Positions 1 through 19,200 of a stretch of DNA of 64,000 nt are shown here, piece by piece. The notes under the pieces are model-generated. The model had not been told where the DNA came from. It was given only the letters and a program-made list of their open reading frames with translations, and did no database searches. A program made the position numbers and the translations under genes. Numbering within the stretch: position 1 is the stretch's first letter; each line of letters opens with the position of its first letter. Source of the stretch: Candidatus Zixiibacteriota bacterium (lineage in GTDB: Bacteria > Zixibacteria > MSB-5A5 > GN15 > JACZUZ01); the NCBI GenBank assembly GCA_024280835.1, contig JAJRPJ010000015.1, positions 62,001-126,000 on the forward strand, read 5' to 3'.

Positions 1-405
1 GCAGACAATACTCCTTTTTGGCTGGTCGGTAAGCCCACAGGCAAGCATTTGCCAATACCGTTTGCGCAAGATTTGGAAGCGCATGATTCCTTGGGATTCG
101 TCGTTGATTCGGATTCATTGATTCACATATTGGCTAATGAGAACCGTTCAAACAGTAAGTTGAATACTCTTATATACATTCATCCTGAGGCAAATTTTGC
201 CTCAATGATAGAATTGCTAGATGATATTGATTTGCTTGAGCGTTCATGGAACAGCGCCTTAGCCGAGAAACTGGGTAAGCCACTTAATGAACTAACTCGA
301 AAAGATGGCAAGTTCTCTTATCGTTATGCGATGGACACTTGGGAAGTTGGCGGTCGAATCGACAACATTATCCGCGCCGCGAAACGCAAGGCCGCCGGGC
401 AATAA
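1..405 (+). CDS. ExbD/TolR-like biopolymer transport protein, C-terminal part (5' end outside window)
   Basis: The frame is open from base 1, so the TTG at 49 is probably not the true start and the N-terminus lies to the left. The visible part has an ExbD-like periplasmic tail, with a TLIYIHPEANF strand followed by a helix (MIELLDDIDLLERSWN). The ending FSYRYAMDTW plus a basic tail resembles ExbD proteins I recall from FCB bacteria, but that is memory, not a search. The stop at 403-405 lies 17 bases before a tonB gene with its own SD. ExbB-ExbD-TonB operons couple proton-motive force to outer-membrane transport, and the neighbour supports the call more than the sequence does. The membrane anchor and the Asp of the ExbD transmembrane helix are not in view. 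Confidence 0.5.
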   Translation, partial: ADNTPFWLVGKPTGKHLPIPFAQDLEAHDSLGFVVDSDSLIHILANENRSNSKLNTLIYIHPEANFASMIELLDDIDLLERSWNSALAEKLGKPLNELTRKDGKFSYRYAMDTWEVGGRIDNIIRAAKRKAAGQ

Positions 406-422
406 AAGAGGGGGAATAATTT

Positions 423-1160
423 ATGCTATTAGCGCCGAAATTTTCAGGAAAATTGCCCTATGGAGCTTTTGAGCTCAAGGTTGCCTATCAGAATAATATG
501 CTTTTGGCTACGATAATTACCGCCTCAGCCGTTGGTTTGATTTGGTTGAGCATTTTCATCTATCAAAAAGCCACCTATATCGAAGCTACGGAGATTCCAG
601 TAGTGATGATTGAGTCGATTATGGATCTCGGCCCACCGCCGACGATTGTTAAGAAGCCACCACAAATTGAGATTTCGACACAGAAAATAGCCCAGCCAAA
701 AGTTGGTATTCCGAAACCAGTCGCTGACGATGAAATCACCGAAGATGTAGTCCTTGCGACCAAGGAAGAGTTGGCGGACATTAACGTCTCTGATCTGGAC
801 TTTGGTAACGATGGTGATGCTAGAATCGAAATTCGAAATGAAATTTTACCTGATCGCACAGCGTTTGTTAAGCGCGAGATTGAACCAGCCTTTATTGAAA
901 GAGTTAGTCCAGTATATCCTGAACTCGCCAAACGAGCGGGTCTTGAAGGTGTAGTGTGGGTTCAAGTGCTCGTTGATAAAACTGGTAAAGTTCGCGATGT
1001 CAAAATCGGCAAAGCTTCTGGAGCTAATGCTGGTTTTGAGCAAGCCGCCATTGACGCCGCTTGGAAATGTAAGTTCTCACCTGCTATTCAGAATGGTCGT
1101 CCAATCGCTGTCTGGGCGAGCTTTCCTTTTCGCTTCACGCTCAAAGCCGCAGGTGGTTGA
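423..1160 (+). CDS. TonB-family energy transducer (copy 1)
   Basis: 245 residues with the TonB layout. A short cytoplasmic stretch carrying LPYGAFELK is followed by one membrane helix at about 27-47, a proline-rich periplasmic spacer at about 70-100 (GPPPTIVKKPP, PKVGIPKPV), an acidic linker, and a C-terminal TonB domain at about 160-240 (SPVYPELAKRAGLEGVVWV, KVRDVKIGKASG, FSPAIQNGRP). TonB proteins span the periplasm and energise outer-membrane receptors. The ATG has a purine-rich SD (GAGGGGG) about 8 bases upstream. It is probably co-transcribed with the ExbD-like gene, and a terminator follows at once. The C-terminal domain is very close to that of the next gene, so the two are recent paralogues. 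Confidence 0.87.
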   Translation: MLLAPKFSGKLPYGAFELKVAYQNNMLLATIITASAVGLIWLSIFIYQKATYIEATEIPVVMIESIMDLGPPPTIVKKPPQIEISTQKIAQPKVGIPKPVADDEITEDVVLATKEELADINVSDLDFGNDGDARIEIRNEILPDRTAFVKREIEPAFIERVSPVYPELAKRAGLEGVVWVQVLVDKTGKVRDVKIGKASGANAGFEQAAIDAAWKCKFSPAIQNGRPIAVWASFPFRFTLKAAGG

Positions 1161-1185
1161 TCAGGCTGTCAGGGCCTGATTTTTG
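1160..1185 (+). terminator. Rho-independent terminator after tonB copy 1
   Basis: ATCAGGC (1160-1166) and GCCTGAT (1174-1180) form a perfect 7-bp stem with a 7-base loop, followed by a T run (1180-1184). The stem begins inside the tonB stop codon. It implies that the second tonB gene is transcribed separately. Confidence 0.7.
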
Positions 1186-1297
1186 TTGAAACGCAGGTTG
1201 TTGTTGAACAAAAATTGCTGTTGAGCGCATTGCGTCCTCACATTATGTAGTCTCTCTCCATATACGATTTATAGATAGTTTGATTGTATGTCTTGGT

Positions 1298-1375
1298 CCC
1301 GTTTAAAGAACGGGAGCTTAGGCATGCGCACATCTGAAATTGTTCTGCGCTATCCTATAGCGCAGAGAGGGGAGG
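1298..1375 (+). promoter_or_regulatory. Two-hairpin leader and SD of tonB copy 2
   Basis: CCCGTT (1298-1303) pairs with AACGGG (1309-1314). CTGCGCTAT (1345-1353) pairs perfectly with ATAGCGCAG (1357-1365) across a CCT loop. Three bases later comes a strong SD, GGGGAGG (1369-1375), five bases before the ATG at 1381. The second stem ends directly beside the ribosome-binding site, so it could stabilise the mRNA or modulate initiation (inference). No U tract follows either stem, so they do not look like terminators. Confidence 0.4.
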
Positions 1376-1380
1376 CTGTA

Positions 1381-2133
1381 ATGCTGTTGAAGCCAAGAAT
1401 TACCTGTCAGGTTCCGTATGGGGCTTTCGACCAAAAGATTCACTATCAGTACAATCTCTTGCGAGCGTTGCTACTAACTTTCGCATTGGTTGGCGCCATT
1501 TTGGGTGCGCTATTTATCGGGGCAAATCCCACCAGTGCTAACGGAGGCAAGCCGTTTGAGGGGTGTGTATTGGATTCAGTTATTGTGTCAGTCGATTTCT
1601 CCCATAATACTGGAGGGACAAGAACTGCTACAGGGCCTAAGGTTTCTATTGATGTGGGCGCCATAAATGGTATCCCCGTGCCTGTCGCAGTCGATGACCT
1701 GCAAGGTTCTTCTGGTAATTTTGAGGCAACTTTTGGAGTTGCTCTTGGCAATTTGCCATTTACTGGGATTATAGGCTCAGGTTCCAATGGCCTTCGCGCT
1801 AGAAGTGGTAGAGGAGGCTTGGGCTATCCAGACGCCTCCAAATTCATTCCACATGAAATCGCCCCTCAGGGGCTTGAATGGGCTATACCAGAGTATCCTC
1901 GTTTGGCAAAAGCCGCTGGTCTTGAGGGAGTTGTTTGGATTGCCGCTTTTGTGGATGAGAGAGGCAAGGTTCAGGCAGTTCAGATAGCTAAGGCCTCTGG
2001 CTCCAATGCGGGTTTTGAAAGGGCCGCTGAAGCTGCGGCTTGGAAATGTACATTTTCTCCCGCTGTTCAAAACGGCAACCCTGTGGCTATTTGGGTGACC
2101 TTTTCATTCCGCTTTAGGCTTTCTCAGGATTAG
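1381..2133 (+). CDS. TonB-family energy transducer (copy 2)
   Basis: 250 residues. The ATG at 1381 is preferred to the in-frame ATG at 1288 because it follows GGGGAGG by five bases and gives MLLKPRITCQVPYGAF, aligning end to end with the start of copy 1. It has one membrane helix at about 28-48 and a C-terminal TonB domain (YPRLAKAAGLEGVVWIAAF, KASGSNAGFERAA, FSPAVQNGNP). The periplasmic spacer differs from copy 1: it is Gly/Val/Ser-rich (GSGSNGLRARSGRGGLGYP) with few prolines, so its reach or flexibility may differ. It probably serves a different receptor set (inference). A short third TonB-like N-terminus follows. Confidence 0.86.
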   Translation: MLLKPRITCQVPYGAFDQKIHYQYNLLRALLLTFALVGAILGALFIGANPTSANGGKPFEGCVLDSVIVSVDFSHNTGGTRTATGPKVSIDVGAINGIPVPVAVDDLQGSSGNFEATFGVALGNLPFTGIIGSGSNGLRARSGRGGLGYPDASKFIPHEIAPQGLEWAIPEYPRLAKAAGLEGVVWIAAFVDERGKVQAVQIAKASGSNAGFERAAEAAAWKCTFSPAVQNGNPVAIWVTFSFRFRLSQD

Positions 2134-2197
2134 CTAACTTGCTGATATTCAGGGCAAATTACAATAGCTTGCAATTGGCAAGTGGTTGTGATTGCTT

Positions 2198-2362
2198 ATG
2201 AGTCAAGGCCAGCGGTCCAGAGAGAGTAGCGTTGAGCTGAGCGTCTTGCGCCATATACCTTTTGGCACATATATTTTTGCCACCAGATATGGAGTCAGTC
2301 GCTCGGCTCTTCGTGTGTTTGGCGCGCTAGTAGGTATAGGCCTTTGGCCCGTCTTTTGGTAA
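2198..2362 (+). pseudogene. Remnant or mini-gene matching only the TonB N-terminus
   Basis: A 54-codon frame starts at ATG 2198 and ends at TAA. From its residue 20 it aligns without gaps to the start of both upstream TonB proteins: IPFGTYIFATRY against LPYGAFELKVAY, with the Pro, Gly, Tyr and a Trp at the end of the membrane helix at the same spacing. No proline spacer or TonB C-terminal domain follows. I see no convincing SD. The simplest reading is a decayed or truncated third tonB copy; a small membrane protein is the alternative. The similarity is short and judged by eye. Confidence 0.4.
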
Positions 2363-2387
2363 TTTCTGGAGTATTTTCAATTACAAC

Positions 2388-2416
2388 TTGACAACTGCTC
2401 AAATGGGCAGTATCCT
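2388..2416 (+). promoter_or_regulatory. Sigma-70-like promoter for the helicase gene
   Basis: TTGACA (2388-2393), a 17-base spacer, then TATCCT (2411-2416). The predicted transcript start falls near 2423. That makes a TTG start at 2427 unlikely and leaves about 88 bases of leader before the ATG at 2511. Confidence 0.5.
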
Positions 2417-2510
2417 GTCGCAATGATTGAAACGTCACCCATCGCGCCTTGGCGGTGGGGAAAATGACGGTATCATCTTATTCAAATTATTCAGATTGAA
2501 TTTGCGACTG

Positions 2511-5500
2511 ATGCGACTAATTGAACTAACTCGATATAATATCCCAGTTTCTCTGATAGAGGGCTGGCGCCAACGACAAGGGGATATTCTCCTGCCGCTC
2601 CAGAGCGAAGCTCTGCGTCAGGGACTTCTTGCAGATGGTCCAACAGATAATCCAAGTCTGGCGGGGCGCTCTTTGTTGATTTCGGCTCCGACGTCAACAG
2701 GTAAAACTTTCTGCGGAGAATTGGCTTTGGCTGGCGCGATTGTTCAGCGGCTCAAAGGTGTTCTGCTGGTTCCGCTCAAATCGATTGCTGAAGAGAAATT
2801 TGCGGAGTTTGAGTCGCTTTATAAATGTCTAAATCTCAAGTGCATAATCGCGACTGCGGATCATCCTGAATATAGCGGAGCGCTTGTCCGCGGCGAGTTT
2901 GATATTGCCATATGCGTTTATGAGAAATTCAACCAAGCGCTCTTGTCGAATATTGATTTGTTGGGTCGTCTGGGCGCTTTGGTTATCGATGAGGCGCAAT
3001 TACTGACTGATCCTGAGAGAGGTATGGCGCTCGAAAGTATTTTGTTGAAACTAACAGGCTATCGGCAGGCGAGCGCTTTAGGTTCCCGCACGACCAACGC
3101 TGGGCCGCGTTTGATAGCTCTGACAGCTTCTTTGGCTACAGATAGCGCGTTGGCCGAGCGTTTCGACGCACAACTCATTCGTGAAACGCGGCGGCCTGTT
3201 GAATTGCGTTTGGGAGTTCTTTTCGCTGGAAACTATCGCTATTTCAATCGCGAGACTGGTGAAGTCGGCTACGAGGAATATAGCTCTGGAAAGTTAATGC
3301 CTTTTGACGCAGAGCAACCGCCTCCGATAGCTCCTGAGTTGTTGCAGAGATTATCCACAGACAGTGGCCCGACTTTAGTGTTCCTAAGTGAACGCTGGCG
3401 AGTGATAGGCGCGGCTCTGGCCTTGGCGGCTTGTGGTCGTTGGAGGCGCGCTGAGAAGAGTTTGGCTGATTTGACTGGGGAAGAGCCATCGTCGGTGGTT
3501 CGCGCATTGTGCCAGTCTTTGACCTGCGGTGTGGCGTTTCATAGCGCTGATTTGACAGCTTCCCAGCGCCGCGTGATTGAACAGGGATTTCGGTCAGGCG
3601 AAATATCGGTCATTTTTTGTACCACTACGCTTGGTTTGGGTGTCAATCTGCCAGCGGAAACAGTGTATATCGAGCCATTCAAATATAGCGCCAGCGCTTT
3701 AGCCGATGGTGGTGGGCGTCAGAAACATCGACTCGCTGGTTTAGCGCCATTACCGCGCGCAGAGTTCGAGAACATTGCTGGCCGCGCGGGTCGGTATCAT
3801 TGTCAAATCTCCAGTGAATCTCAGCCACAAGTGGCGCGGGCAGTTTTGATAGCGCAAACAGAGTTTGAGCGTGACGTCCTGTGGGGAACTTACATCGAGC
3901 CAACGCATGCCGCGAATTCTCGATTGTCTTTGATTGTTGACGCCAGTGAAAATAGTGAGGCGTTCACCTCGCTTGTTCTCGAAATGATTGTTTGCGGTTT
4001 GGCTTCTAATCTGGCACAGTTGGCAAGCGCCTTTGTGGCCCTGGCAAGATCATCGAATGATGCCCAAAGTCAGAAGGATCAGCGCTCCGAGACATTGAAC
4101 AACGCAGTCAATCATTTGCGTGAGCTCGACTTGCTTATTGCTGATACTGATAAGTTGGTAGACACCGATCTTGGTCAGGCCGTCGGGGGCAGTGGTTTGT
4201 CATTGCGAGGGGTGTCGCACTTTGTCAACGCCTTGCAACGCATCCAGCCGACATCGGCGCAGGAATGGTTGGCTTTGGCGCTTAGTTCCCCAGATTTTTT
4301 TGGTTCAGGTCCTATCGCAACTCGCACTGCCGCTGGCGCTGTGGCGCGACAATTATTTACATCTTTGCCAGATTCCGCTGATCGACTATTGGCTTGTCTG
4401 ACGGGGGGAGCGCCTGTGCCGAGTCCAGTTAGTGTTTTGGGAGCCTCACGATTACGTGCGCCAGAATTGATTATGCGTATTCGGGCTTTTCTAGTTTTGG
4501 AAGCCTGGCGCTCGGGTGAGTGGGCGCATCTTTTGGAAACTCGCTGCCGAATATCGGTGGCGCAGGTGTCTCGTTTGGGACAGGATGTTCGTTGGCTCAT
4601 GCGGAGTCTGGTCGATATCGCAGTGATTGTCGGCGTCTTGACCGCAGAGTCAGCTATGGCTTTGGAACTGGACTCTTTGATGGATTCTCTCCGCTATGGC
4701 CTTCCGGCGCCAGCTTTGGAATTGGGACAGTCTCTGGCAAAAAAATCCGATGGTAGTCTCTATCAACTCACTGACTTGTTCAACCGCGCCGAATTGATGG
4801 AACTCGAAAACTCTGGCTGTCGCACAGCCAGTGATGTTGCTGAATTATTAGAAACTTCTGGCGCCAAAGTTCTCCCGAATACTTCAATCAATCCCGCTGT
4901 GGCTTTCGCTGTCAAGCAGCGCCGATTGCAGGCGCGGCTTGCCGCACTCGGTCAAACACCAGCTCCGTCTGGAGCCTGTAGTCGTTTATCAACAGCACAA
5001 AAAAAACACAACACACATAATTCAACACATTCAAACAAACAGGAGAGAAACATGAGTGAACAAATCGTAGCAGGACATCAGGCGCAGGCGCCATTGCTCT
5101 ACCCAGCGACTTCCGCTGGCTTGACAGTCGGGAAGACCGCGCAAGCAAGTAGCCCAATAGTACCTGGGTTGACATTGGTTCCCTGTAGCTTGCAAATCGA
5201 TGGGGCCTCGCGAGGTGAGCGGTTTTTGATGCGAGTCGATGGTTTGCCAGTCTCTTTGACAGGCAAGTCATTCAAGTATTTGGTGAAATTAGTCTGCGCT
5301 CGTTTGGCGCAAGCCGATGGCTGGATTTACAAAGATGACATTGAAATCGGTTTTAATCAGGCGCGTTATTTGTATCGCATGCGCCGCGAAATAGCCGCGC
5401 AATTGCCGAGCTATAGCTGGTCGGTCTATGAGAACAATCGTCTGGGCTATTATCGCTTGGCGCTTGATTCCGCGGCGATCAGTGTCAATCGCGAGGCGTT

Positions 5501-5609
5501 AGTCAATAGTCCAGACTATGAGATTGCGCAGGCAGCCGCAGCGTTGGCAATTGTCGGGCCTATTGAAGCGCCTGTAGATCGGGCTATGGAAGAACGTCGT
5601 CTGGGGTAG
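2511..5609 (+). CDS. Ski2-like superfamily 2 DEAD/DEAH helicase, read through in frame into a winged-helix domain
   Basis: Helicase motifs are clear: Walker A SAPTSTGKTF (Lys near residue 65), DEAQ (near 160), TASLA (motif III), LGLGVNLPAE (motif V region) and NIAGRAGRY (motif VI, near 420). The order and the GVNLPA/AGRAGR pair fit Ski2/Hel308-type ATP-dependent nucleic-acid translocases. A helical C-terminal region follows to about residue 825. The frame then crosses an A8 run (4999-5006) and a low-complexity Asn/Thr/His stretch, and enters a winged-helix domain that has its own SD and ATG at 5052. So this may be two genes joined by an indel or by slippage at the A run. The start is uncertain: ATG 2511 fits the family N-terminus (LIELTRYNIPVSLIEGWR) but no SD is visible, and TTG 2427 adds 28 unlikely residues. 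The RNA or DNA substrate cannot be told from sequence. Confidence 0.75.
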   Translation: MRLIELTRYNIPVSLIEGWRQRQGDILLPLQSEALRQGLLADGPTDNPSLAGRSLLISAPTSTGKTFCGELALAGAIVQRLKGVLLVPLKSIAEEKFAEFESLYKCLNLKCIIATADHPEYSGALVRGEFDIAICVYEKFNQALLSNIDLLGRLGALVIDEAQLLTDPERGMALESILLKLTGYRQASALGSRTTNAGPRLIALTASLATDSALAERFDAQLIRETRRPVELRLGVLFAGNYRYFNRETGEVGYEEYSSGKLMPFDAEQPPPIAPELLQRLSTDSGPTLVFLSERWRVIGAALALAACGRWRRAEKSLADLTGEEPSSVVRALCQSLTCGVAFHSADLTASQRRVIEQGFRSGEISVIFCTTTLGLGVNLPAETVYIEPFKYSASALADGGGRQKHRLAGLAPLPRAEFENIAGRAGRYHCQISSESQPQVARAVLIAQTEFERDVLWGTYIEPTHAANSRLSLIVDASENSEAFTSLVLEMIVCGLASNLAQLASAFVALARSSNDAQSQKDQRSETLNNAVNHLRELDLLIADTDKLVDTDLGQAVGGSGLSLRGVSHFVNALQRIQPTSAQEWLALALSSPDFFGSGPIATRTAAGAVARQLFTSLPDSADRLLACLTGGAPVPSPVSVLGASRLRAPELIMRIRAFLVLEAWRSGEWAHLLETRCRISVAQVSRLGQDVRWLMRSLVDIAVIVGVLTAESAMALELDSLMDSLRYGLPAPALELGQSLAKKSDGSLYQLTDLFNRAELMELENSGCRTASDVAELLETSGAKVLPNTSINPAVAFAVKQRRLQARLAALGQTPAPSGACSRLSTAQKKHNTHNSTHSNKQERNMSEQIVAGHQAQAPLLYPATSAGLTVGKTAQASSPIVPGLTLVPCSLQIDGASRGERFLMRVDGLPVSLTGKSFKYLVKLVCARLAQADGWIYKDDIEIGFNQARYLYRMRREIAAQLPSYSWSVYENNRLGYYRLALDSAAISVNREALVNSPDYEIAQAAAALAIVGPIEAPVDRAMEERRLG
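5052..5609 (+). CDS. Winged-helix (OmpR-C-type) DNA-binding protein, candidate separate gene
   Basis: The ATG at 5052 lies six bases after AGGAGAG, the best SD in this region, although the frame is continuous with the helicase upstream. The 185-residue product has a flexible N-terminus, then a region like the OmpR C-terminal fold: VDGLPVSLTGKSFKYLVKLV, then YLYRMRREIAAQL, then RLGYYRLAL as the wing. There is no receiver domain. In the +1 frame relative to the helicase, a TGA (5053-5055) overlaps this ATG as ATGA, which is how coupled genes usually abut; in the -1 frame TAA occurs at 5018. Both are what one expects if a base was gained or lost in the A8 run. Role inferred: regulator or DNA-targeting partner of the helicase. 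Confidence 0.5.
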   Translation: MSEQIVAGHQAQAPLLYPATSAGLTVGKTAQASSPIVPGLTLVPCSLQIDGASRGERFLMRVDGLPVSLTGKSFKYLVKLVCARLAQADGWIYKDDIEIGFNQARYLYRMRREIAAQLPSYSWSVYENNRLGYYRLALDSAAISVNREALVNSPDYEIAQAAAALAIVGPIEAPVDRAMEERRLG

Positions 5610-5640
5610 GCGTCTCTTCTTGAGCGGTCTGCTCTGCAAG

Positions 5641-5678
5641 AATAAGCGTTGACAGTAGCGCTAAAACACGGGTAATTA
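5641..5678 (+). promoter_or_regulatory. Promoter candidate upstream of the Lon-type gene
   Basis: TTGACA (5649-5654) is followed after 18 bases by TAATTA (5673-5678). The 14 bases AATAAGCGTTGACA (5641-5654) recur exactly at 8445-8458 upstream of the dockerin gene. The -10 box is only moderate. Confidence 0.4.
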
Positions 5679-5835
5679 TCGTGGGTTTGCCGAGAACGGC
5701 GCCCGCGAGCGCCTGTGTGTATCGTTGTCAGATTGTGCTTGTTTTATTTGCTCCAATCGAAACGATAGAATCTCTTTGAGGCCCACAAAGCTCGCTATGA
5801 AATTGTAACATCCGCGATAAGGACAGCTCAGCGAA

Positions 5836-6681
5836 ATGATAGTCAAGTCAATTAACAAGATTCCCTTGAAACCAACGGACGAAGGTCAGATTTATCCTAT
5901 CCTGCCAGTAAAGGTTGGCTTGTTATTTCCAGGAAATCGCCGCCGTTACAATATAACTCGCAAATCCTCGCTAGCCTTGCTTGAGACTTGTCGTGGGGGA
6001 GAATGTCCACTGATAATTAGTTACACTCCCACATCGCGCGAGTTATCCGATGGCGCAGTTATCCCACTTAGTGAAGTAAGTGTCACAGCTTTGGTCACCA
6101 ATGTTCGTGAGGGACGCGGTGATTCAAAGGATGTCGAATTCATGGGAGTTGATCGTGTTGCGCTCACTTCGATAACCAGCCGCTCACCATATGTAATGGG
6201 TGAGGCGCGTCTGGTTCAAGAGCGTCCACGATTACAAGGTCCGAATCACGACAAGATTCTCGCTGAAGTAATTGATCTAGCCGAGAAGATTATTGAGCGC
6301 GGTTCGTCAGTCGATCCAAGATTGAAAGAAGCAATTCGTGTCGCTCATGCAACGGACGGCGCCTTTGCAGATGTGGTGACAGCTTATGCTCCACTGAATC
6401 CAACTGAACGTCAAACCCTATTGGACACGATAGATTTGCGCGCTAGGTTTGATCTTCTCAGAGACTTGGTGAGAACAGAACTTGACCGTATTTCGCTTTC
6501 TTTGCAATTAGGACATCGCGCCGAAGAGCAAATGAAAGAAAATCGTCATCGTGAATACCTTGAGCTAAAACTTGAGGAAATAAAAAAACAACTTGGCGGA
6601 CCCTATGCCGACGAAAAGGCCTCGGCTGCGTTCAAGCGTCGAATCCGATTAGCTACGAATCTCCCCAATGATGTGAGATAA
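5836..6681 (+). CDS. Lon protease N-terminal (substrate-binding) part, ended by an in-frame TAA
   Basis: 281 codons. The first ~200 residues read as a Lon N-domain (IYPILPVKVGLLFPGNRRRYNI, with a LTSI...P segment near 115-125), followed by a long helical region ending in EIKKQLGG and ATNLPNDVR. In ordinary Lon this last motif (LPEEVRE...) continues straight into a helix and the LPW motif. Here it is followed by TAA (6679-6681), and the missing part continues in the same frame in the next entry. So one Lon-type protein is split at a position that is normally Glu or Lys. A nonsense mutation (for example GAA to TAA), an assembly error, readthrough, or a true two-subunit Lon are all possible. ATG 5836 follows GGACAG weakly. 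Confidence 0.75.
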   Translation: MIVKSINKIPLKPTDEGQIYPILPVKVGLLFPGNRRRYNITRKSSLALLETCRGGECPLIISYTPTSRELSDGAVIPLSEVSVTALVTNVREGRGDSKDVEFMGVDRVALTSITSRSPYVMGEARLVQERPRLQGPNHDKILAEVIDLAEKIIERGSSVDPRLKEAIRVAHATDGAFADVVTAYAPLNPTERQTLLDTIDLRARFDLLRDLVRTELDRISLSLQLGHRAEEQMKENRHREYLELKLEEIKKQLGGPYADEKASAAFKRRIRLATNLPNDVR

Positions 6682-8337
6682 TTGGCTTGGGAGGAGGCTT
6701 CGCGCTTGGCGATTTTGCCAATTGGCGCCGCAGAATATGCGAGTGTTCGCCATTTTGTCGAAGTCTTGCTCTCATTGCCTTGGAGCAAAGAGCAGCTGAA
6801 CGACTCGCTTGATATGAAGAGCCTCGAAACAGCTATTTTTAAGGATTACTACGGCACAGACAAAACTAAGCGTAGAATTATCGAACGGATTTCGTCGAAT
6901 ATCCTTACTGGTGGGTCGGAGAAGGGTCCGATTATTTGTTTTATGGGCTCGGCGGGAACTGGCAAGGCTACTCTGGCGCGTTCAATAGCGCGTGGTTTGA
7001 AACGTGAGTTCCTGAGACTCAGCCTCGGCTCGATTGTTGATATTACCGAACTTAAAGGTATGCCACGTTCGATGATCGGCGCCACACCTGGTGTGTTCAT
7101 TCGTGAATTGCAACGCCTGAAGACATCGAATCCTGTGATTTATGTCGAGGACCTTGAGTATCTTGGCGATGGAGATAATTCGTTGGCGCTGGCTTTATTG
7201 GAAGTCATGGACCATCGTCTTAATCACCGTTTCATCGACAATTTTATTGGCATACCGTTTGATTTTTCTAAGGCTTTGTTTATTTGCGGTGTTCGCTACC
7301 CCGATGGCATCCCTGAGGTGATTGATAATCGAATTGAAGCTATAGAAATCCCTGGATATATTGAAAAAGAAAAGGTTTCGATTGCTAGAAAGCACCTTAT
7401 TCCGCCACTGTTGAAGAAGTACACGCTGGCTCGCACCGATGTTTCAGTGACAGCTGATGGATTGGTGCGACTGATACGTGACTATACAATGGAGTCGGGA
7501 CTTCTAGAGTTCTCGCGCCTGCTGGATAGAATTTTTCGCCATGTTGCCAGCGAAAGAAGGTCGAAAAAACGCAAAAAATGGAAACTCGATAGTCCACTGC
7601 TAGAGTCAGTTTTTGGGGCGCCTATGTATATACCAGAAAAGCCAATGAAAGAGCCTCAAATTGGCGTAGCAACTGGGTTGGCATGGACTGGTGTAGGCGG
7701 AGAATTGATGTTGATTGAGTGTCTGAAAATGCGCGGAGACGGCAATATCGTCTATACGGGCTCTCTCGGGGAAGTCATGCGCGAATCGATTCAGGCGGCT
7801 CATAGCTATATCCGTTCGATGGCGGATATGCTGGGTATCGATCATGACGATTTCAAAAATTTCGATATTCATGTCCATTTCCCATCTGCGGCTATCCCAA
7901 AAGATGGTCCCTCCGCCGGAATTGCCGTTTCGCTAGTTATCGCCTCAGTTATGGCAGAGCGGCCTATTCGCAACGATATAGCCATGACAGGTGAAGTGTC
8001 GCTTCAAGGTAATGTTTTGCCAGTCGGTGGTATTAAGGAGAAAGTCGCTGCCGCCCATCGCGCGAATATTCCGTACGTTTGTATGCCCCGTGAGAATGAA
8101 AAAGATCTCAAAGATTTGCCAAAAGAGATTACGCGTAGCACCAAGTTCATCTTTGTTGGCTCGGTTGATGAGCTATTTGAACAGGCGCTACTCGACTTTA
8201 CACCCTCATCGTACACGCTCGAAAAGATGTTTGCTGTTGAATTGGAAAAGGCGCGTCGCAAACGATCTGCGAAAGTAGCCAAGAAGCGTAAGCCAGCCCG
8301 CAAAGCGGCCCGTAAGACAACAAAAAAGAAGAAATAG
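6682..8337 (+). CDS. Lon-like protease, ATPase-degenerate, with intact Ser/Lys dyad and lysine-rich tail
   Basis: The reading frame continues directly from the TAA of the Lon N-part; TTG 6682 is the first codon, so the real initiation site is unclear. Residues here count from 6682. The LPW motif of Lon is at 32-34. The AAA+ module is changed at key sites: Walker A GSAGTGKA (89-96) has Ala where Ser/Thr binds Mg; Walker B reads VIYVED (152-157), Glu-Asp instead of Asp-Glu; sensor 1 Asn is absent (LFICGVR); and the sensor 2 Arg of the usual AGVRxLER is absent (SGLLEFSR). The protease domain is well kept: PKDGPSAG with Ser411 and GGIKEK with Lys454, 43 apart as in E. coli Lon (679/722). The C-terminus (about 523-551) is a Lys/Arg/Ala tail resembling histone-H1-like or AlgP-like tails, so DNA or polyanion binding is plausible. 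It is probably one gene with the upstream part. Confidence 0.8.
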   Translation: MAWEEASRLAILPIGAAEYASVRHFVEVLLSLPWSKEQLNDSLDMKSLETAIFKDYYGTDKTKRRIIERISSNILTGGSEKGPIICFMGSAGTGKATLARSIARGLKREFLRLSLGSIVDITELKGMPRSMIGATPGVFIRELQRLKTSNPVIYVEDLEYLGDGDNSLALALLEVMDHRLNHRFIDNFIGIPFDFSKALFICGVRYPDGIPEVIDNRIEAIEIPGYIEKEKVSIARKHLIPPLLKKYTLARTDVSVTADGLVRLIRDYTMESGLLEFSRLLDRIFRHVASERRSKKRKKWKLDSPLLESVFGAPMYIPEKPMKEPQIGVATGLAWTGVGGELMLIECLKMRGDGNIVYTGSLGEVMRESIQAAHSYIRSMADMLGIDHDDFKNFDIHVHFPSAAIPKDGPSAGIAVSLVIASVMAERPIRNDIAMTGEVSLQGNVLPVGGIKEKVAAAHRANIPYVCMPRENEKDLKDLPKEITRSTKFIFVGSVDELFEQALLDFTPSSYTLEKMFAVELEKARRKRSAKVAKKRKPARKAARKTTKKKK

Positions 8338-8816
8338 TCTCTTGGAATTGTTTCTTAGGTGAATTAGACAGGATTACTCAAGCAATAGTCTCCCATGTAA
8401 GCGCCTTGCAGTAACGACAGTCGCCTTGTTTCTTGGCGTCAATTAATAAGCGTTGACACATAGGCGGTTAGGCTACTATATTTGCCATGTACGTCAGGCA
8501 TTTGGCAGCTATGCCAACTACCAACTTACCTATATCTTAATACTTATGTATTTGCCCCAACGAGGGCGCCGTCAGAAACAAGAATGCTATACCTAGGAAT
8601 CGTCAACCTAGCTTAAGTTCGAGGCTGTTCATATCGTCATATCGGTTCTTGAAAGTTGTCTTTTTTCAAGAGAAGCGACCTTAACATTTAGGACGACTGC
8701 TTGTGGCTATTGACGGTTGTTAGGTATGTGGTTTTAGAGAAGAATTTTGAATAGTATATAGAATCATGGTTGCAAACTGGACTGCAACTCGGCCAACAGC
8801 AAATTAGGAGAAAATC
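8338..8816 (+). other. 479-base spacer: promoter, dyad and long leader
   Basis: No convincing gene. TTGACA (8453-8458), 18 bases, TATATT (8477-8482) form a good promoter whose first 14 bases match the one at 5641. Close to the predicted start lies a dyad, TTGGCA (8502-8507) and TGCCAA (8512-8517). A stem TCTTGAAA/TTTCAAGA (8647-8654/8664-8671) has no U tract. If this promoter serves the gene at 8817, its leader is about 330 bases long. I could not match the leader to a known riboswitch by eye. Confidence 0.4.
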
Positions 8817-11225
8817 ATGCTTGTCTGCAATCCTTATGTACTCAAGAAGCAAAATTCTAGTAAACCTCACCACAGAAGGTTGGGAGTTTTCATGTCGATT
8901 GTCATGTTTGTGGTGATCCTTTTGGGAGTAACATCTACGCAAGCGCAGGTGAGCGCTTTGAATGCAAGCGCTGGAACAGATCCAGGAAACCCCGATGTCA
9001 TTTCTGTGGCTGATGCTAGTGTCGATCCAGGTGACCATTTTCGTATTCAGATTTCGCTGTTGAATGATGAGGAACTCTCTGGCGCGACAATTGGTATTCG
9101 ATGGGGAACCCCAGATTTATTTCTTGATTCGATTTCTTATGTAGGCACGCGTCTCGAAAGCCTTCCAGCAGTGCAGCGTCCAGTATCGATCGATAATACA
9201 ACTCTATTCGCTGGGTTGGCTGGTTTTTTTGTCTTTGGCCCTCCAGGCATTCAATCTGGTACAGGAGCTTTTGCAAACTTTTGGTTCACTGTTAGCCCAA
9301 CAGCAGCGGACCAATTCATTGACCTAGATTCCACATTTTTCCCACCCAGTGGAGATTTTATTTTAGTCGCACTTGCTGGTAATGTTTCATTTGCCCCACA
9401 GTTTTCTGGCGGTAGGATAACAGTTGGTGAACCGTCAGAGCCGTCAACCATTGATGTCAGTCCAACTAACTTTTTGTTCAACGCAATTGAAGGCGCCACT
9501 AATCCTGCTTTCCAAGTTCTGAATATCGAAAACGTTGGTTTAGGAAATCTGAATTGGACAGCGACCTTTTCATCATCTTGGCTGAATGTTTCGCCAACAA
9601 CTGGGACAGCTCCGTCGGTTACTCAAATCACCGCCAATTCAATAGGATTACCTGTTGGGACATATTTCGATACGATAGTCATTAGTGACCCGAATGCGAC
9701 CAATAGCCCCTTTGAAATTCCAGTTGAATTAGCAGTCTCACCACCACCACCGACTATCAATGTCTCTCAACGGACTTACTTTTTTAATGCCGTAGCGGAT
9801 TCCACGAATCCGCCTACACAAAGTTTGATAATTAAGAATACGACCAATGGTTCTCTCAATTGGCAAGCAAGCAATTCTGAGAGTTGGCTGACAGTGACTC
9901 CGACTTCTGGAGGTGATTCGACAGATGTTTCACTCAGTGTGGATATTGCTGGATTACCTTTTGGCTCATATCAAGACACAGTCATTATTGGTGATTCGAG
10001 CGCAACAAATTCTCCTGTTAGGGTAGCGGTTAATCTGTCGGTGGCCTCTGACTTACCAATAATTGCTCTCTCTCCAGATACGATTCATGTAGTTGTTGAT
10101 TTGAATTCGCCTGCATTGCTTGCGGCAGGTGATATTTTTGACACAGCTGTTTTTGTCATTAGTAACGCTGGCGCTGGGAGTATGACATACTCATTGAGCG
10201 AGACATCAAGTCGCATTTTCGCAATGACTCCGATTGCGGGTACGGCGCCTGATTCAATTCAAGTTATATTCAAACTCATCGGTGGTTCGCCAGGTGATGT
10301 ATTTGATTCTATTTTGGTAAGTTCACCCGAGGCGATAAACTCTCCCCGGTACGAATACATCAGGTACCACTTTACGTTTTCCCCAGCCAACATAACCCTT
10401 TCGCCTGATACCTTAGAGTTTTCCCTATTTGAGTGTGAACAGGGAGCAAGTTTTGTCCCACAGATTGAAATTGCGAACTTCAACAATTTCGGTGAGCCAG
10501 CGTCATTTAGCCTTGAATTCTATATAGACTGGCTTACATCAATGCAAGATTTCGGTACGGCGCCAACATCGATTGGGTTTATTGCAAACGAAACAGGCTT
10601 ATCTGTGGGTGAGTATCTCGATTCAATAAAAGTTATCTCGCCGATTTCGCAAACCAATCCACAGTATCTCTACGTCCGATTAACCATCCAAACAGCCACT
10701 CAAGCTGCAGTAATTGTTCCGAACAAAGAGATATTTGTTATCCCAGCTCGTGAGGATGAAAGTTTCCAATATGGTCCCGCTGATGTTTTGAAGCTGAATA
10801 ATTTTCACGGTGGGTGTTTTAATTGGGATATACAAGAATCAATTTCATGGCTCAGCCATGATCCTCCATCTGGGCAAAACCCAGCAAGCATCTTACTTAT
10901 AGGGGATGGAACGAATTTGCTTTTTGGAGAATATGATAGTTTGTTTACAGTTATAGTTCCTGAAGCCAATAATTCACCTAGGACTATTTTGACGACGCTT
11001 AGAGTCTGGCGCCTGTTTGGTGATTCGGACTACAATAATCGAATCAACGTCACCGATGTTGTCTATTTGATTGAATATATCTTCAGCGGTGGTCTGCCAC
11101 CTGAGCCAGCAATCTATGTCGGTGATGTCGATTGTACTGGCACAGTCAACGTCGCCGATGTGACATTCCTAATAGCCTATATTTTCGACAAAGGTGATAC
11201 GCCGTGCGGCAATGAGGGACTATGA
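8817..11225 (+). CDS. Secreted multi-domain protein: cohesin-like head, BACON/Ig-like repeats, dockerin-like C-terminus
   Basis: 802 residues. The ATG follows AGGAGA by six bases. An N-terminal signal (about 20-44) has a hydrophobic core (MSIVMFVVILLGV) and a likely cut after TQAQ. Residues about 55-200 resemble a cohesin-like beta domain (VDPGDHFRIQISLLND). Then come about five ~100-residue repeats, each with a hallmark like NLNWTATFSSSWLNVSPTTG, PVGTYFDTIVISDP and NSP, resembling BACON-type domains. The last ~70 residues form a paired dockerin-like module (FGDSDYNNRINVTDVVYLIEYIF, then GDVDCTGTVNVADVTFLIAYIF) with Asp/Asn loops that should bind calcium. Likely exported to the cell surface. 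Two other proteins here (21245-23191 and 23306-25495) share the dockerin module. The ligand is unknown. Confidence 0.75.
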   Translation: MLVCNPYVLKKQNSSKPHHRRLGVFMSIVMFVVILLGVTSTQAQVSALNASAGTDPGNPDVISVADASVDPGDHFRIQISLLNDEELSGATIGIRWGTPDLFLDSISYVGTRLESLPAVQRPVSIDNTTLFAGLAGFFVFGPPGIQSGTGAFANFWFTVSPTAADQFIDLDSTFFPPSGDFILVALAGNVSFAPQFSGGRITVGEPSEPSTIDVSPTNFLFNAIEGATNPAFQVLNIENVGLGNLNWTATFSSSWLNVSPTTGTAPSVTQITANSIGLPVGTYFDTIVISDPNATNSPFEIPVELAVSPPPPTINVSQRTYFFNAVADSTNPPTQSLIIKNTTNGSLNWQASNSESWLTVTPTSGGDSTDVSLSVDIAGLPFGSYQDTVIIGDSSATNSPVRVAVNLSVASDLPIIALSPDTIHVVVDLNSPALLAAGDIFDTAVFVISNAGAGSMTYSLSETSSRIFAMTPIAGTAPDSIQVIFKLIGGSPGDVFDSILVSSPEAINSPRYEYIRYHFTFSPANITLSPDTLEFSLFECEQGASFVPQIEIANFNNFGEPASFSLEFYIDWLTSMQDFGTAPTSIGFIANETGLSVGEYLDSIKVISPISQTNPQYLYVRLTIQTATQAAVIVPNKEIFVIPAREDESFQYGPADVLKLNNFHGGCFNWDIQESISWLSHDPPSGQNPASILLIGDGTNLLFGEYDSLFTVIVPEANNSPRTILTTLRVWRLFGDSDYNNRINVTDVVYLIEYIFSGGLPPEPAIYVGDVDCTGTVNVADVTFLIAYIFDKGDTPCGNEGL

Positions 11226-11265
11226 GTTGTAACCTCCCAATTTCAATCTAGGTTGAGTATTTAAT

Positions 11266-11313
11266 GAGCCTCTTCACAGAAAGCCACAGCTTTCGGTGGG
11301 GAGGCTCTTTTAT
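11266..11313 (+). terminator. Rho-independent terminator after the dockerin gene
   Basis: GAGCCTC (11266-11272) pairs with GAGGCTC (11301-11307), with an inner stem GAAAGC-CACA-GCTTTC (11279-11294), followed by TTTTATTT. Confidence 0.75.
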
Positions 11314-11515
11314 TTGATACTGATTTGGGATTTCAAGGATTGATTCTTGGCAGAGCGACCTCTGAGTGTTACCTTAAAATCCACTCAGTTGGGGTTCCTC
11401 AAATAATGAGACTGAGTTGGCAAGCCATCACTCTTAAAGATGCTTTGCGTATATGGTTACATTCACCTACGAGATTACTACGTTTGATTAAAGAGTTTGA
11501 TTGAAGAGATTGACT

Positions 11516-12973
11516 ATGAGCGCTGAATTAAAGAAAAAATATTACCATATTATCACCTATGGCTGTCAGATGAATGTTGCAGATTCACAAACCTTGGCTG
11601 GCTGTCTTGAAGACTCAGGATTCACCGCTACTGAAGAAGAAGAGCAGGCCGAGTTGATAATCGTCAACACTTGCTCAGTGCGTGAAAAAGCAGAGGAGCG
11701 AGCCTTCGGCCGTTTGGGAGATTTGCGCCGACTTAAGAAGGATGGCCGTAAGCTCAATATTGTTGTAGTCGGTTGCATGGCCCAACGATTGGGGGCGCGG
11801 ATTATAGAGCGGATACCACATGTCGATTTGGTTCTCGGCACGGATCGAATGTTTGATCTACCAGAAATTTTAGCGCACAAAGATACTGTTCCTGAAGTCC
11901 ACACCGCTTTCGGTCATGAGAATCTAGATGACGCTCCTGCGATCCGTGATACACCGTTTAGCGCATACTTGACTATCACTAGAGGCTGTAACAACTACTG
12001 CACATTCTGTATTGTACCTTTCGTCAGGGGCCGTGAAAAATATCATCCGACTGAACATTTAGTCCGTCAAGCATCCGAACTTGCTGCTGATGGAGTGATT
12101 GAATTGACACTGCTTGGGCAGAATGTCAATTCATATCGTGATGGGGAGGTCGATTTTCCTGGTCTAATCAAACGCATCGCTGATGAGACTGATATTCAGC
12201 GGATTCGTTATACCAGTCCACATCCGAAAGACCTCTCGATTCGCTTGATTGAACTGCATGCTAATGAGCCGAAGGTCATGCCGCATGTGCATTTACCAAT
12301 ACAATCTGGTTCGGATAGAATTCTACAGAAAATGGCTCGACCCTATTTGTATCGTCACTATCGAAATATCGTCAAGAAGCTCCGTGAGGCCACACCGCAT
12401 ATTGCAATTTCAACAGATGCTATTGTCGGATTTCCAACCGAGACTGAGGCCGACTTTCAAATGACTTTGGATGCCTTCGAAGAGTCACAGTTCGATTCGG
12501 CTTTCATGTTTCATTATTCCGAACGAGAGGGAACTCGCGCTCATAAAGAAATTAAAGATGACATTCCGCGTGAATTGAAAATTGAACGACTCGAGAGACT
12601 GATTGCAATGCAGAAAAAAATCAGCTATAACAAGAATCAATTTGAGTTGGGTAAGATACAAGATACACTTGTGGATGGATTTAGCCGAAGAGATCGTTCT
12701 GTTCTTAAGGGCAAAACTCCAGGTGGTAAGACTGCGTTATTTGCTGGCGACGAATCGTTGATTGGCAAAGTTATACAGGTGAAAATTTCGCAGGCTGACT
12801 CGTGGACTTTACATGGCTCAGTTTACAATGGCCGTGATGGTTATCGTCCTTTGGGCTTTTTCCAGCCTGAGGTTGGCTCAACCAGCGTCAAAGTGGATTC
12901 CAAAGTCCCTTCGAGCCGTGTCTCTTCAAACGCTATCTCTTCAAGCATCCGCGAAGCATTAGGCGAACAATGA
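11516..12973 (+). CDS. miaB: tRNA-2-methylthio-N6-dimethylallyladenosine synthase MiaB
   Basis: 485 residues from ATG 11516, chosen over the in-frame TTG at 11501. MiaB is a radical-SAM enzyme that adds a methylthio group to i6A37 of tRNAs reading U-starting codons. The N-terminal cluster-binding domain has its three cysteines in YGCQMN, NTCSVR and VGCMAQR. The radical SAM motif is RGCNNYCTFCIVP (CxxxCxxC). LTLLGQNVNSY and HLPIQSGSDRIL are family signatures. A TRAM-like domain follows near 375-440, then a Ser-rich tail of about 30 residues that is longer than usual. The TGA overlaps the next ATG as ATGA, so the two are translationally coupled. Confidence 0.95.
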   Translation: MSAELKKKYYHIITYGCQMNVADSQTLAGCLEDSGFTATEEEEQAELIIVNTCSVREKAEERAFGRLGDLRRLKKDGRKLNIVVVGCMAQRLGARIIERIPHVDLVLGTDRMFDLPEILAHKDTVPEVHTAFGHENLDDAPAIRDTPFSAYLTITRGCNNYCTFCIVPFVRGREKYHPTEHLVRQASELAADGVIELTLLGQNVNSYRDGEVDFPGLIKRIADETDIQRIRYTSPHPKDLSIRLIELHANEPKVMPHVHLPIQSGSDRILQKMARPYLYRHYRNIVKKLREATPHIAISTDAIVGFPTETEADFQMTLDAFEESQFDSAFMFHYSEREGTRAHKEIKDDIPRELKIERLERLIAMQKKISYNKNQFELGKIQDTLVDGFSRRDRSVLKGKTPGGKTALFAGDESLIGKVIQVKISQADSWTLHGSVYNGRDGYRPLGFFQPEVGSTSVKVDSKVPSSRVSSNAISSSIREALGEQ

Positions 12974-15900
12974 TAACCCAGCACGTATTAGCTCTCTTGT
13001 GGTTATCTCTTGTTAGCCTGACTTATGTGCGTATACTCCGCAAGCGAGATGCAATTGAGACACATTTTCGAGCTTTTGCTCTTGGGTCGGGTGTTTGTTT
13101 GCTTGTGGCTGGTCTGATTTTTTGGTTGGGCGCCTTTAGCGCTTATTCAAGTTGGTTTGTTCCTGTTGTTTATCCAGTTTTAGATTGGACTCGTATTGCT
13201 CTCGTCATAGTGGGTGTAGCTTTGATTCTTTGGGCGTTTATCCAAAAGTTTGAGGATGAGGAAGAGGTTGTACCAGTTCCCCAATCAACCTTGCACACGG
13301 TTGAACCCAATTCTACGAACATAGCTGAGATTCCGCTGACAGGGTTGGCAGCGCTCAATACGTTGAGGATGGCTATTTCGCAGCCGTATCCATTTGTCGA
13401 ACTAGCCAGAGTGGCTTTGGATGGAGTCTCTGAGATTTGCGGAATTACGTGTGGAGCTTTGTACATTCACAACGAGTCTACTCAAGAAATGACGATTGCC
13501 GCTTCAAAAGGACTGACACCGCGACAAGAGCGAATTTTAGAACGTTTGCCGTTAGGCTCGCCAATACTAGTAGAGGCAATTGCTTCTGGTGAACCGCTAC
13601 TTTCAAGCGAATTCGTCACCGAGATTTGCAAGAGCGAATTAAATGCGGAAGTATTCAATTGTTCATTCACTGTCTTGGCGCCATTACTGCGGAATAATGA
13701 TGCGCTTGGGCTGATTGTCCTCATAGGGGATAGCGCTAGGCAGCTTTCCAATTCCCAATTGGCAACTGTTGCGCAAATGTCGGACATTGTTGCCGATAAG
13801 TTTGCCAATGTGAAGCTTCGAGGTGAGTTAGCCAGAACAAAAAAGAAATTTACGGAACGTGAAGTTTCACGCAAGAGGATTGCGTCAACCTTTCACCATG
13901 CCTTTGATGCACTAACCCATTCAAGTGATCTCAATTCGGTTTGCCGTGAATTAGTTGGGATTGGTTCTGCTGACTCTGTGGCTTTGATTGAGACAAGCGG
14001 TTCTGGAAAGGGGATGCGTCTAAGGGCAACGTCCGACCGCTTTCCAGCTACAACAGAGGGTTTTGAGCGAGCAGCTTTACAGGCTCTTGAAAGGCAGTCG
14101 CTAGTTTTGCTCTCACGGGAGCATAAAGTTGGACCTTCTGCATTGCCAAGCCGGCTAGAGCAGGTAGCAATTGAACGAGAGCCGATGGCTCTTGTTGCTC
14201 CATTGTCATTATCCAATAGTGATGAGGTTCACGATTCAGCGGCTAAGCCCAATGATCCTAGATTCGGTATTCTGTTTTGGAATAGTGTCGATCGTTTTCA
14301 TTTGTCTCCCGAAGAGTTGCAGGATTTTCAAGAGTGGTTGCAGCCATTGAAAATTGCCTTACGAAACAAACTGGTGGAGCGAAGCGCTCAGGAGGCCAAC
14401 GGGGTCTTAGAGATTATTCAAGAAATTCTTCATCCAGAAGATGAAACCGAAACAGAGAAAATTCGTCTGAAGCGTTTTGTCTCTTCGGTACGGCGTGTCT
14501 TCAATTTGTCTGATACTTGCCTAGTTTTTAGACGCACTAGCTCAGGTCAGCTTCGTCCCTTGATGACATTCGGTGTGCCGTTTGATGAAGTCTCAACGCT
14601 AGTGATTCTGGCTGGGGAAGGTTCACTAGGACGTTGCTCGGCTCTGAATCTCAGCGCTTTTGAATTTGGCGGAGCTCGGATATCAGAGGTCGCCAACGAG
14701 TATGACATGCTAAACCGTGAAGTCTTTGGAGAGGGATTTCGGCGCATGGGGAACGTTCAGTCCCAAGTTGTAGCGCCAATTTCTATGAATGGAGCCTGTC
14801 GCTACTTGCTCAGTTTCTTCTTTGAGGATCCGGTTGAAGCTCAAATATGTGCTAAGGCATTATTGCCACTATGCCAGTTGTTGTCGCTGGTTTTGAGTGT
14901 GAAGGAATTGCAGTTAACCCCTGAAGGCCCAACTCCTGATTCAGGATTCATAGATGGCTCCAATAGTTCGGTTTCTTCTATTGTAAATGAAATCAATAAT
15001 GACCTTTCGACAATTATCGGGAATTGTCAACTCGCCGCCGAAGATCCGAACTTATCTGGCGCTCTCGAGCGTGTATTGAAACTCGTAATAGATCGAGCGG
15101 AACACTCCGCAGAAAGACTTCGTATTGAATCTGGCCTTGACATGCAAAAACGAGCGCAGGATGAATCTGCGATAGTTAGCTCTTCAAGCGATAGGACAAT
15201 CAAAGCGGCAATTGATTCTCTGTCACTGGCTGAAAAAATACGGTTGTTTGCCGCAAAACGAGTCATCGGTGGGCAGATGTTGCTGGCGGAAGGTAAGGCT
15301 CGCGAAGTTGAATTTGAACTGGAAAGTGATTTTACTATTAGTCTGTCATCGAGTTCTGCTGAGAGTTTGATTGAGCGGTTGTGCTATGGACTCAGCGCTC
15401 ATGCAGACGAGAGAGAGATTGTTACTGTTGCAGTGTATCGTGACGCCGGATATGAATATTTGGATATTTCACGTAGATGGAGAAACCTACCTTCGGCTAA
15501 ACGAATCGGTTCTTATGCCCGTTTCGAATCCTCACCGTGCGATGGTATTTTTGATGTCGAAAGTGAAACACTAGACTTATTGAAAAGTTTGGGAATTGAA
15601 ATAGCTTTCGATAGGCGCGGAGCTCACCCTGCCTATGTGACATTGCGCAAATCGATCGGTATAGACTCTGCTGAGGGCGACCACATTCTGTCTGTTGCCG
15701 ATTCCACTCCACGCATTTTGGCAATTGATGACCAGAGTATGATTCTTGATTTGCTAAGCGCCATGTGTGATTCGATGGGCTATGCAATCGATACTTTTGA
15801 ATCTCCATCGAGGGCAATTGCAGCCTTTGAACGTGGAGCGCATGACATAGTAATTACCGATGTGGCTATGCCGGAGTTAGACGGCTGGGAAGTCGCCGCA

Positions 15901-16086: not shown

Positions 16087-16336
16087 ACGTTCCCAATTCA
16101 TGTTTCAAATCGAGTTGCTATAACTTAGTCTAAATCATGTAGATTGTTTCGCTCATGTGGTGTTTCACGGCGTATTCAATATCTCCAATTGTCTTTCAAA
16201 TACTGGCTCCATCCTCTCATTTTAATCTCTCAATCACCGATACCTACTATAGGTTGGTCTAAGGCCTACTACTTACGATTTAATCGTAACTTGTCGTTGG
16301 TTTTGTATGGCGTTCTAAGGAGTGTGAGTTATAGAT

Positions 16337-17680: not shown

Positions 17681-17732
17681 AAGGTTTGACGCGTTGATTA
17701 TTGTCGAACAATGCGCTGATGGTATCTTCTAA

Positions 17733-17762
17733 TTGACAAGTCGCTACGCTTTTCTGTACCAT
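17733..17762 (+). promoter_or_regulatory. Promoter candidate for aroC, implying a leaderless mRNA
   Basis: TTGACA (17733-17738), 18 bases, TACCAT (17757-17762). A start about 7 bases downstream falls on the A of the aroC ATG at 17770. No SD precedes that ATG. Confidence 0.4.
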
Positions 17763-17769
17763 ACCCACT

Positions 17770-18963: not shown

Positions 18964-19170
18964 GATTCTCCTGCTTGACATCGATTTAGCCTGCCTGAAC
19001 TCTGAAAATGGGTTCGTTTTATATATACATGTGTTGGCTCATTAGTTGACTCTCCTTTTGGTCTTGTCTGGGTGGTTGTGTCTACTATTGTTGGTGGTTA
19101 GTTGTAGTGTGGATTTGTTGTGAAACTCCAGCAGCATTACTTAAGGAAAAGATGTTGCACTTCAAATGTG

Positions 19171-19200
19171 AATCCACCTTCCCGCCTTCGCGGGAATGAC
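19171..19200. repeat. REP-like palindrome
   Basis: TTCCCGC-CTTC-GCGGGAA (19179-19196), a 7-bp perfect stem, preceded by AATCCACC and followed by TGAC. This resembles the widely dispersed family containing GTCATTCCCGCGAAGGCGGG, known from many bacterial genomes (recalled, not searched). It is the only copy I noticed in the window. Confidence 0.45.

Follow-up and report, generated by a model that had tools for sequence, protein, structure and literature searches.

A LonA paralogue of Zixiibacteriota with degenerate ATPase motifs and a strongly conserved protease domain

AAA+ proteases are usually thought to depend on their motor. The window analyzed here, a stretch of 64,000 nucleotides from a Candidatus Zixiibacteriota bacterium (contig JAJRPJ010000015.1), carries the gene of a Lon homologue, Lon3, whose ATPase motifs are altered at several positions and whose protease dyad is intact. 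This raises the question of whether Lon3 is a normal Lon in decay, a Lon whose ATPase still works through substitute residues, or a protease that has done away with its motor.

Extent of the lon3 gene and its interruption in the window

An earlier sequence-only reading of this DNA had set the limits of the gene at 6682-8337. These limits are wrong: this open reading frame (ORF) encodes only the C-terminal two thirds of a LonA-type protein, whose gene starts at 5836 (+). The ORF at 5836-6681 lies in the same frame, with a TAA codon as the sole separator, and the Lon model TIGR00763 matches the first ORF with its positions 1-270 and the second with its positions 277-795. In a genome of the same genus (G001), a single ORF of 833 aa spans both parts and has a sense codon in place of the TAA; the TTG at 6682 is just the codon directly after the stop. 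The features of the gene are as follows (residue numbers count from 6682).

5836..6681 (+): N-terminal part of Lon3, Lon substrate-binding domain, 281 aa (Pfam PF02190, 4e-21)
6679..6681 (+): in-frame TAA between the N domain and the ATPase and protease domains
6682..8337 (+): C-terminal part of Lon3, 551 aa, with AAA+ module, lid, protease domain and basic tail (Pfam AAA, Lon_lid, Lon_C)
6946..6975 (+): Walker A, GSAGTGKATL; Ala96 (6967-6969) replaces the Mg-binding Thr
7147..7152 (+): Walker B, Glu156-Asp157 in place of Asp-Glu
7294..7296 (+): sensor 1 position (E. coli N473), Arg205
7330..7332 (+): arginine finger (E. coli R484), kept as Arg217
7504..7506 (+): sensor 2 position (E. coli R542), Leu275
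7588..8193 (+): protease domain, Lon_C (Pfam 4e-77), gap-free against E. coli Lon
7912..7914 (+): catalytic Ser411 (E. coli S679)
8041..8043 (+): catalytic Lys454 (E. coli K722)
8194..8334 (+): C-terminal extension, a conserved helix (PSSYTLEKxFxxELEKA or PSSYTLEKxFAEEIEKA) followed by a Lys/Arg-rich tail

Nonsynonymous differences between the window and G001 are low (0.12 per site over the 281 codons of the N part and 0.07 over 547 codons of the C part) against synonymous sites that are saturated, and we therefore conclude that the gene was constrained until recently; the N part is 81% identical to the G001 ORF in amino acids. The TAA may be a recent nonsense change or an assembly error, or the gene may now be read as two pieces. 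Since Lon3 is interrupted in this genome, the full protein may not be made from the window copy. It could be argued that the window copy is a dying pseudogene and its motif changes are decay, given that Lon3 is the only gene with an internal stop among the seven comparable with G001 (those at 55% identity or more, from 10 matches in total; the BLAST stretch at 8802-11222 also counts one stop, but upstream of that neighbor's ATG). We consider this highly improbable: both parts of the gene are under purifying selection, the 833 codons hold no further stop or frameshift, and intact genes throughout the order carry these motif changes as fixed features, which refutes decay as their cause.

We also observed a GGGAGGAGG stretch at window positions 6690-6708, downstream of the TAA and just 5' of an in-frame TTG at 6706. 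Re-initiation at this TTG is conceivable; these bases also encode conserved residues, and the resemblance may be a coincidence.

Motifs and domains of Lon3

In E. coli numbering, and with what we take to be the named positions of E. coli Lon (Walker, sensor, finger and dyad), window Lon3 has the changes T363A, D423E, E424D, N473R and R542L, and it keeps K362, R484, S679 and K722. The alterations that the sequence-only reading had listed in Walker A (Thr to Ala), Walker B (Asp-Glu to Glu-Asp), sensor 1 (Asn to Arg) and sensor 2 (Arg to Leu) are all there, as is the Ser411/Lys454 dyad; the kept arginine finger was absent from that list. Ser411 lies in PKDGPSAG and is 43 residues from Lys454, the spacing of S679 and K722 in E. 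coli Lon. The 61 residues from Lys95 to residue 156 (Glu) likewise equal those from K362 to D423.

To compare folds, we modeled the uninterrupted Lon3 of G001 (locus L077, JAJRPM010000002.1) with AlphaFold, using 28 sequences (mean pLDDT 79, pTM 0.43). Over the whole chain, Foldseek gives low TM-scores (0.3), as the model arranges the domains differently, and agreement was therefore taken at the domain level only. Domain by domain, the model matches LonA structures: the N domain matches 3ljc (Z 22.4, rmsd 2.6 over 237), the helical bundle with the AAA domain matches 4ypn (Z 28.3, rmsd 2.1 over 244), and the protease domain matches 1rr9 (Z 28.2, rmsd 1.8 over 180). The end of the tail (817-833) has pLDDT below 50.

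The C-terminal extension has a median of 39 aa and a net charge of +12 in 60 Lon3 sequences of the order; for 57 canonical Lons the corresponding values are 15 aa and +3. The Lys/Arg tail noticed in the sequence is thus present and conserved in the group, and "histone-like" is a fair description of its composition. It is not distinctive, however, as a canonical Lon on another contig of the same genome (C10) has a longer tail of 53 aa with a net charge of +19.

The ATPase changes are fixed across the order

If the changes were those of a single decaying copy, relatives should differ. From the loci of a search of 60 relatives, supplemented with further stretches, we selected 43 orthologues, one per genome, by a BLAST score above 500 bits and blind to the motifs. 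All 43 have GTGKA in Walker A, lack both the sensor 1 Asn and the sensor 2 Arg, and keep the catalytic Ser and Lys; Walker B is Glu-Asp in 42 and Glu-Asn in one (G040). The canonical Lons compared have GKT throughout. The altered residues are thus conserved in relatives, and simple decay of a normal Lon is ruled out, the changes being fixed across the order. In sequence terms, Lon3 combines the full LonA architecture and an invariant dyad with the loss of the residues predicted to hydrolyze and sense ATP.

Lon3 is found in nearly the whole order. Every one of the 60 relatives searched yielded a match, and a profile of the ATPase region of the orthologues scored at least 312 bits in 73 of the 80 genomes of the order. 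Among the remaining seven, three (G013, G027 and G051) have a partial match of 58-62% identity in the search of 60 relatives, and four have no Lon3 match, two of which (G086 and G087) lie outside that search. Among the best 80 of 234 relatives in a contig scan, 48 loci are of the degenerate Lon3 kind, whereas the other 32 belong to different lineages and encode canonical Lons. GTGKA is present in 47 of these 48 degenerate loci and GTGIA in one. The Thr to Ala change is also seen in 65 of 65 sequences of the order, a count that is circular in that the group was defined by GTGKA or GTGIA; the noncircular evidence is the 43 of 43 above and the motif-free tree below. The Walker A Lys is retained in 64 of these 65 sequences and in 83 of the 84 of the whole degenerate group (in all motif counts, sequences cut by contig ends were included wherever the motif column was filled).

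Nearly all of the 48 loci are labeled Zixiibacteriota, Zixibacteria or GN15, with a few labeled only "bacterium" and one "Ignavibacterium sp."; the NCBI entry of the phylum holds unclassified and environmental taxa only. In the locus with the Ignavibacterium label (L089, DYGG01000039.1), Lon3 and its neighbors group inside Zixiibacteriota, and the label is probably wrong. The GTGIA sequence (L121/L159, CP070756.1; genome G078) is a Lon3 that has lost the Walker A lysine as well.

Whether a canonical Lon occurs elsewhere in the window genome was another question left by the sequence-only reading. Two are present, which rules out Lon3 as the sole Lon of the genome.

Constraint is reversed between the ATPase and protease domains

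We compared Lon3 with the canonical Lon1 in the 20 genomes of the order that yielded both, giving 190 pairs, which are not independent of one another. Mean identity between genomes, for Lon3 versus Lon1, is 38.3% versus 61.5% in the N domain (Lon3 lower in 188 of 188 pairs), 60.2% versus 79.0% in the AAA domain (lower in 189 of 190), and 77.4% versus 68.1% in the protease domain (lower in 1 of 190). The second canonical Lon, Lon2, gives the same picture (13 genomes, 78 pairs): Lon3 is lower in 77 pairs for the N domain, in 76 for the AAA domain and in none for the protease domain. Between Lon1 and Lon2 there is no such inversion. Moreover, seven of the nine positions that mark the Lon3 clade against canonical Lons are in the protease domain, and the clade-marking M611, D658 and F668 occur in all sequences counted. 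The reversal is large, and at the level of sequence conservation it shows that in Lon3 selection has moved away from the ATPase and onto the protease domain, a clear and testable signature.

These values bear on two alternatives. The first is that the ATPase still works, with Glu-Asp substituting for Asp-Glu and other residues replacing the Thr and the sensors. The two Walker B positions do remain acidic in almost every sequence of the order, and between genomes the AAA domain retains about 60% identity, but it is under weaker constraint than that of canonical Lon, and several independent elements were lost together, differing by family; we regard a working ATPase as very unlikely. The second is that Lon3 has no role alone and is a partner subunit in mixed rings with canonical LonA, lending its arginine finger and tuning or targeting the ring. 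Its full LonA architecture, the canonical Lons in the same genome and the arginine finger kept in the order and in three further families (see below) are in line with this idea. The protease domain is nevertheless more conserved than that of canonical Lon, and the ring-contacting N and AAA domains are less so, the finger being moreover lost in two families, f12 and f13 (8 of 8 sequences); thus, we find a partner role unlikely.

Related degenerate Lons in the class

Outside the order, a broader profile searched against 52 genomes gave 16 scores of 328-357 bits, the others being at most 295. The sequences recovered show different losses in different families. Family f5 has GKA with Glu-Asp, like the order of the window; f9 and f10 have GK(S/T) with Asp-Asp, Glu or Asp at sensor 1, and no sensor 2 Arg; f13 has GKT and a Walker B Glu followed by Gln, Gly or Pro, and has lost the arginine finger in 5 of 5 sequences; and the three f12 sequences, at 289-295 bits, have all lost the finger. 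The finger is kept in 65 of 65 sequences of the order, 4 of 4 of f5, 3 of 3 of f9 and 4 of 4 of f10. The catalytic dyad is intact in every sequence of the five families, and only the ATPase residues lost differ between them. These class-mates are natural intermediates, from which one may learn which parts of the ATPase are needed for Lon ring assembly and for opening of the active site.

A tree built with the motif columns removed (67 of 95 rows used, all of LonA type, with no LonB or LonC rows) placed 52 degenerate Lons in one clade with 100/100 support, apart from 15 canonical Lons; another tree used 50 of 138 rows. The tree separates f5 from the order of the window, yet a constraint placing all GKA sequences together is not rejected (AU p 0.293), and GKA may have arisen once or twice. 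Outside the phylum, the 17 best matches were fetched and all are canonical.

A relative with canonical Walker and sensor residues at the same locus would indicate a decaying normal Lon, as the sequence-only reading had pointed out. No fully canonical relative at this locus was found among the class-mates: all nine f5, f9 and f10 sequences at the same locus, with the helicase described below adjoining, are degenerate, and six of them (f9 and f10) have a canonical Walker A.

The retained residues suggest a further alternative, that Lon3 binds ATP and barely hydrolyzes it, nucleotide occupancy being the on-off switch of a regulated protease. The Walker A Lys is kept almost throughout, f9 and f10 combine GK(T/S) with Asp-Asp, a pattern expected to bind without hydrolysis, and LonC binds six nucleotides per hexamer without hydrolyzing them, according to the available part of its description (PMC3391209). 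In the entire order, however, the Mg-binding Thr is gone, and one sequence (L121/L159) is without the Lys too. We judge a nucleotide switch possible, if somewhat unlikely.

Relation to known Lon proteins

Lon3 shares with LonA (E. coli, Thermus, Meiothermus) the order of N domain, AAA+, lid and protease, the PKDGPSAG consensus and the Ser-Lys spacing, and its profile scores 722 bits against full-length E. coli LonA. The features that define LonA in the part of PMC9569914 available to us include a Pro before the catalytic Ser and a fixed Ser-Lys spacing, both of which Lon3 has, and about 60 residues from the Walker A Lys to the Walker B Asp, where Lon3 has 61, to a Glu. The LonA substrate-binding domain ahead of the AAA+ module is present as well (PF02190; in a single ORF in G001). 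Lon3 departs from LonA in lacking the canonical Walker A and B and both sensors (the Walker A Thr, the order of the Walker B residues, and sensors 1 and 2), in having a conserved C-terminal helix and a longer basic tail, and in that the protease and not the ATPase is its best conserved domain. Lon1 and Lon2 of the same genomes are homologous to Lon3 over the full length (37-42% identity), and basic tails occur among them as well, but they keep GKT, Asp-Glu and the sensor Asn and Arg, and have AAA as their most conserved domain.

A probable functional parallel is LonC (MtaLonC, TTC1975; PDB 4FW9), which like Lon3 joins a degenerate AAA+ module, without proper Walker B and sensors, to an intact Ser-Lys dyad. 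The available part of PMC3391209 describes MtaLonC as a hexamer that has no ATPase, binds nucleotide and degrades unfolded substrates without ATP; in its account LonC lacks the LonA N domain, has a catalytic consensus resembling that of LonB and carries two insertions in the protease domain. Lon3 differs in all three features, with an N domain, the LonA-type consensus and a gap-free protease domain, and membership in LonC is thereby ruled out; indeed, only the protease domain of Lon3 matches LonC (E about 3e-5). BrxL of BREX systems shares the Lon-like protease fold (PADLOC 2e-15), but the match is confined to the protease domain, and no other BREX genes were recognized among the neighbors scanned with Pfam. 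Among the papers available, searches on Lon protease in Zixibacteria or Zixiibacteriota, and on Hel308 in Zixibacteria, found nothing; for degenerate LonA, the LonC paper was the only relevant item, a further search yielded unrelated Lon papers only, and one on the peptidase activity of Walker A mutants found nothing.

A putative ATP-independent protease derived from LonA

We suggest, with a probability of about 0.6, that Lon3 is an ancient LonA paralogue turned ATP-independent protease, parallel to LonC and not part of it. The ATP-independent peptidase proposed from the sequence is thus the best reading for the group, with its fixed ATPase changes and its protease as the most constrained part, while for the window itself it must be qualified by the interruption of the gene. 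Lon3 would form a Lon-like ring in which the AAA+ ring is a scaffold, perhaps one that still binds nucleotide, given that Walker A keeps its Lys, in a structural or gating role. Like LonC, it would cleave peptides or unfolded proteins with no need for unfolding powered by ATP, and would have reached this ATP-free state from LonA independently of LonC. A bacterial class would accordingly keep the Lon3 protease and drop its motor by different routes in each family, while normal Lons persist.

Two points temper this proposal. The protease domains of LonA normally become fully active only when nucleotide drives the ring to close, and a residue of the LonA catalytic loop that we associate with the inactive state, Asp676, is present in 62 of 62 sequences of the order; activity of Lon3 without ATP is therefore not assured. 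The arginine finger retained in the order and in f5, f9 and f10 also argues against a purely passive ring, which would presumably not need one.

Genomic neighborhood

The sequence-only reading had placed Lon3 next to a helicase and a winged-helix protein. The helicase is there, but the winged helix is a C-terminal domain of the same ORF and not a separate protein. The neighbors concerned are the following.

2427..5609 (+): Hel308-like helicase of superfamily 2 (1060 aa), encoded immediately upstream of lon3
5193..5606 (+): OmpR/PhoB-type winged-helix domain at the helicase C terminus (AlphaFold pLDDT 86, structural match)
8817..11225 (+): BACON-domain protein, downstream neighbor; its G001 orthologue also matches dockerin

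For the helicase C-terminal domain, Pfam gave no match and Foldseek alone gave none below 0.001 for the model, whereas VIA-align on the same model returned only OmpR/PhoB/CadC/ToxR-type winged helices among the 50 rows listed (best Z 9.8).

The helicase gene occurs class-wide (124 of 132 genomes), so its co-occurrence with Lon3 was dropped as evidence and only adjacency is informative. Among 49 Lon3 loci (the 48 listed from the contig scan and that of the window), upstream sequence of more than 600 bases is present for 43, and the helicase lies upstream on the same strand in 41 of these, within 400 bases in 35; the exceptions are L096, with the helicase on the other strand, and L092, with none in 1.5 kb. 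It stays beside lon3 while genes further upstream or downstream change. The helicase also adjoins Lon3 in 9 of the 11 f5, f9 and f10 loci, the other two reaching or nearing a contig end on that side, and is adjacent in none of five f13 loci. This steady neighbor is a first handle on the function of Lon3. Lon3 may work near nucleic acid, as its basic tail and its conserved position downstream of a helicase that ends in a DNA-binding-type domain would suggest, but this is the weakest step, and any link of Lon3 to DNA or to the helicase is a guess that draws on position and charge. One could go further and imagine an energy-free Lon, derived from LonA, that acts beside the adjoining helicase and is held near DNA by its tail, clearing proteins exposed by the helicase or by stalled replication, with the class-mates keeping stages of the motor loss; we hold this picture to be doubtful.

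An Rfam scan of window positions 1-20000 gave no match, and promoter and terminator scans of 5500-8900 gave counts near those of shuffled sequences. Downstream of lon3, BACON and dockerin proteins, and an M1 peptidase with dockerin (L081), are regularly found in the order. Together with the further neighbors (TonB/ExbB/ExbD, a protein that we take from its sequence to be MiaB-like, and GAF and response-regulator proteins), they form an ordinary conserved stretch. The winged helix of the helicase is itself very well conserved (GFNQARYLYRMK ... ENNRLGYYRL).
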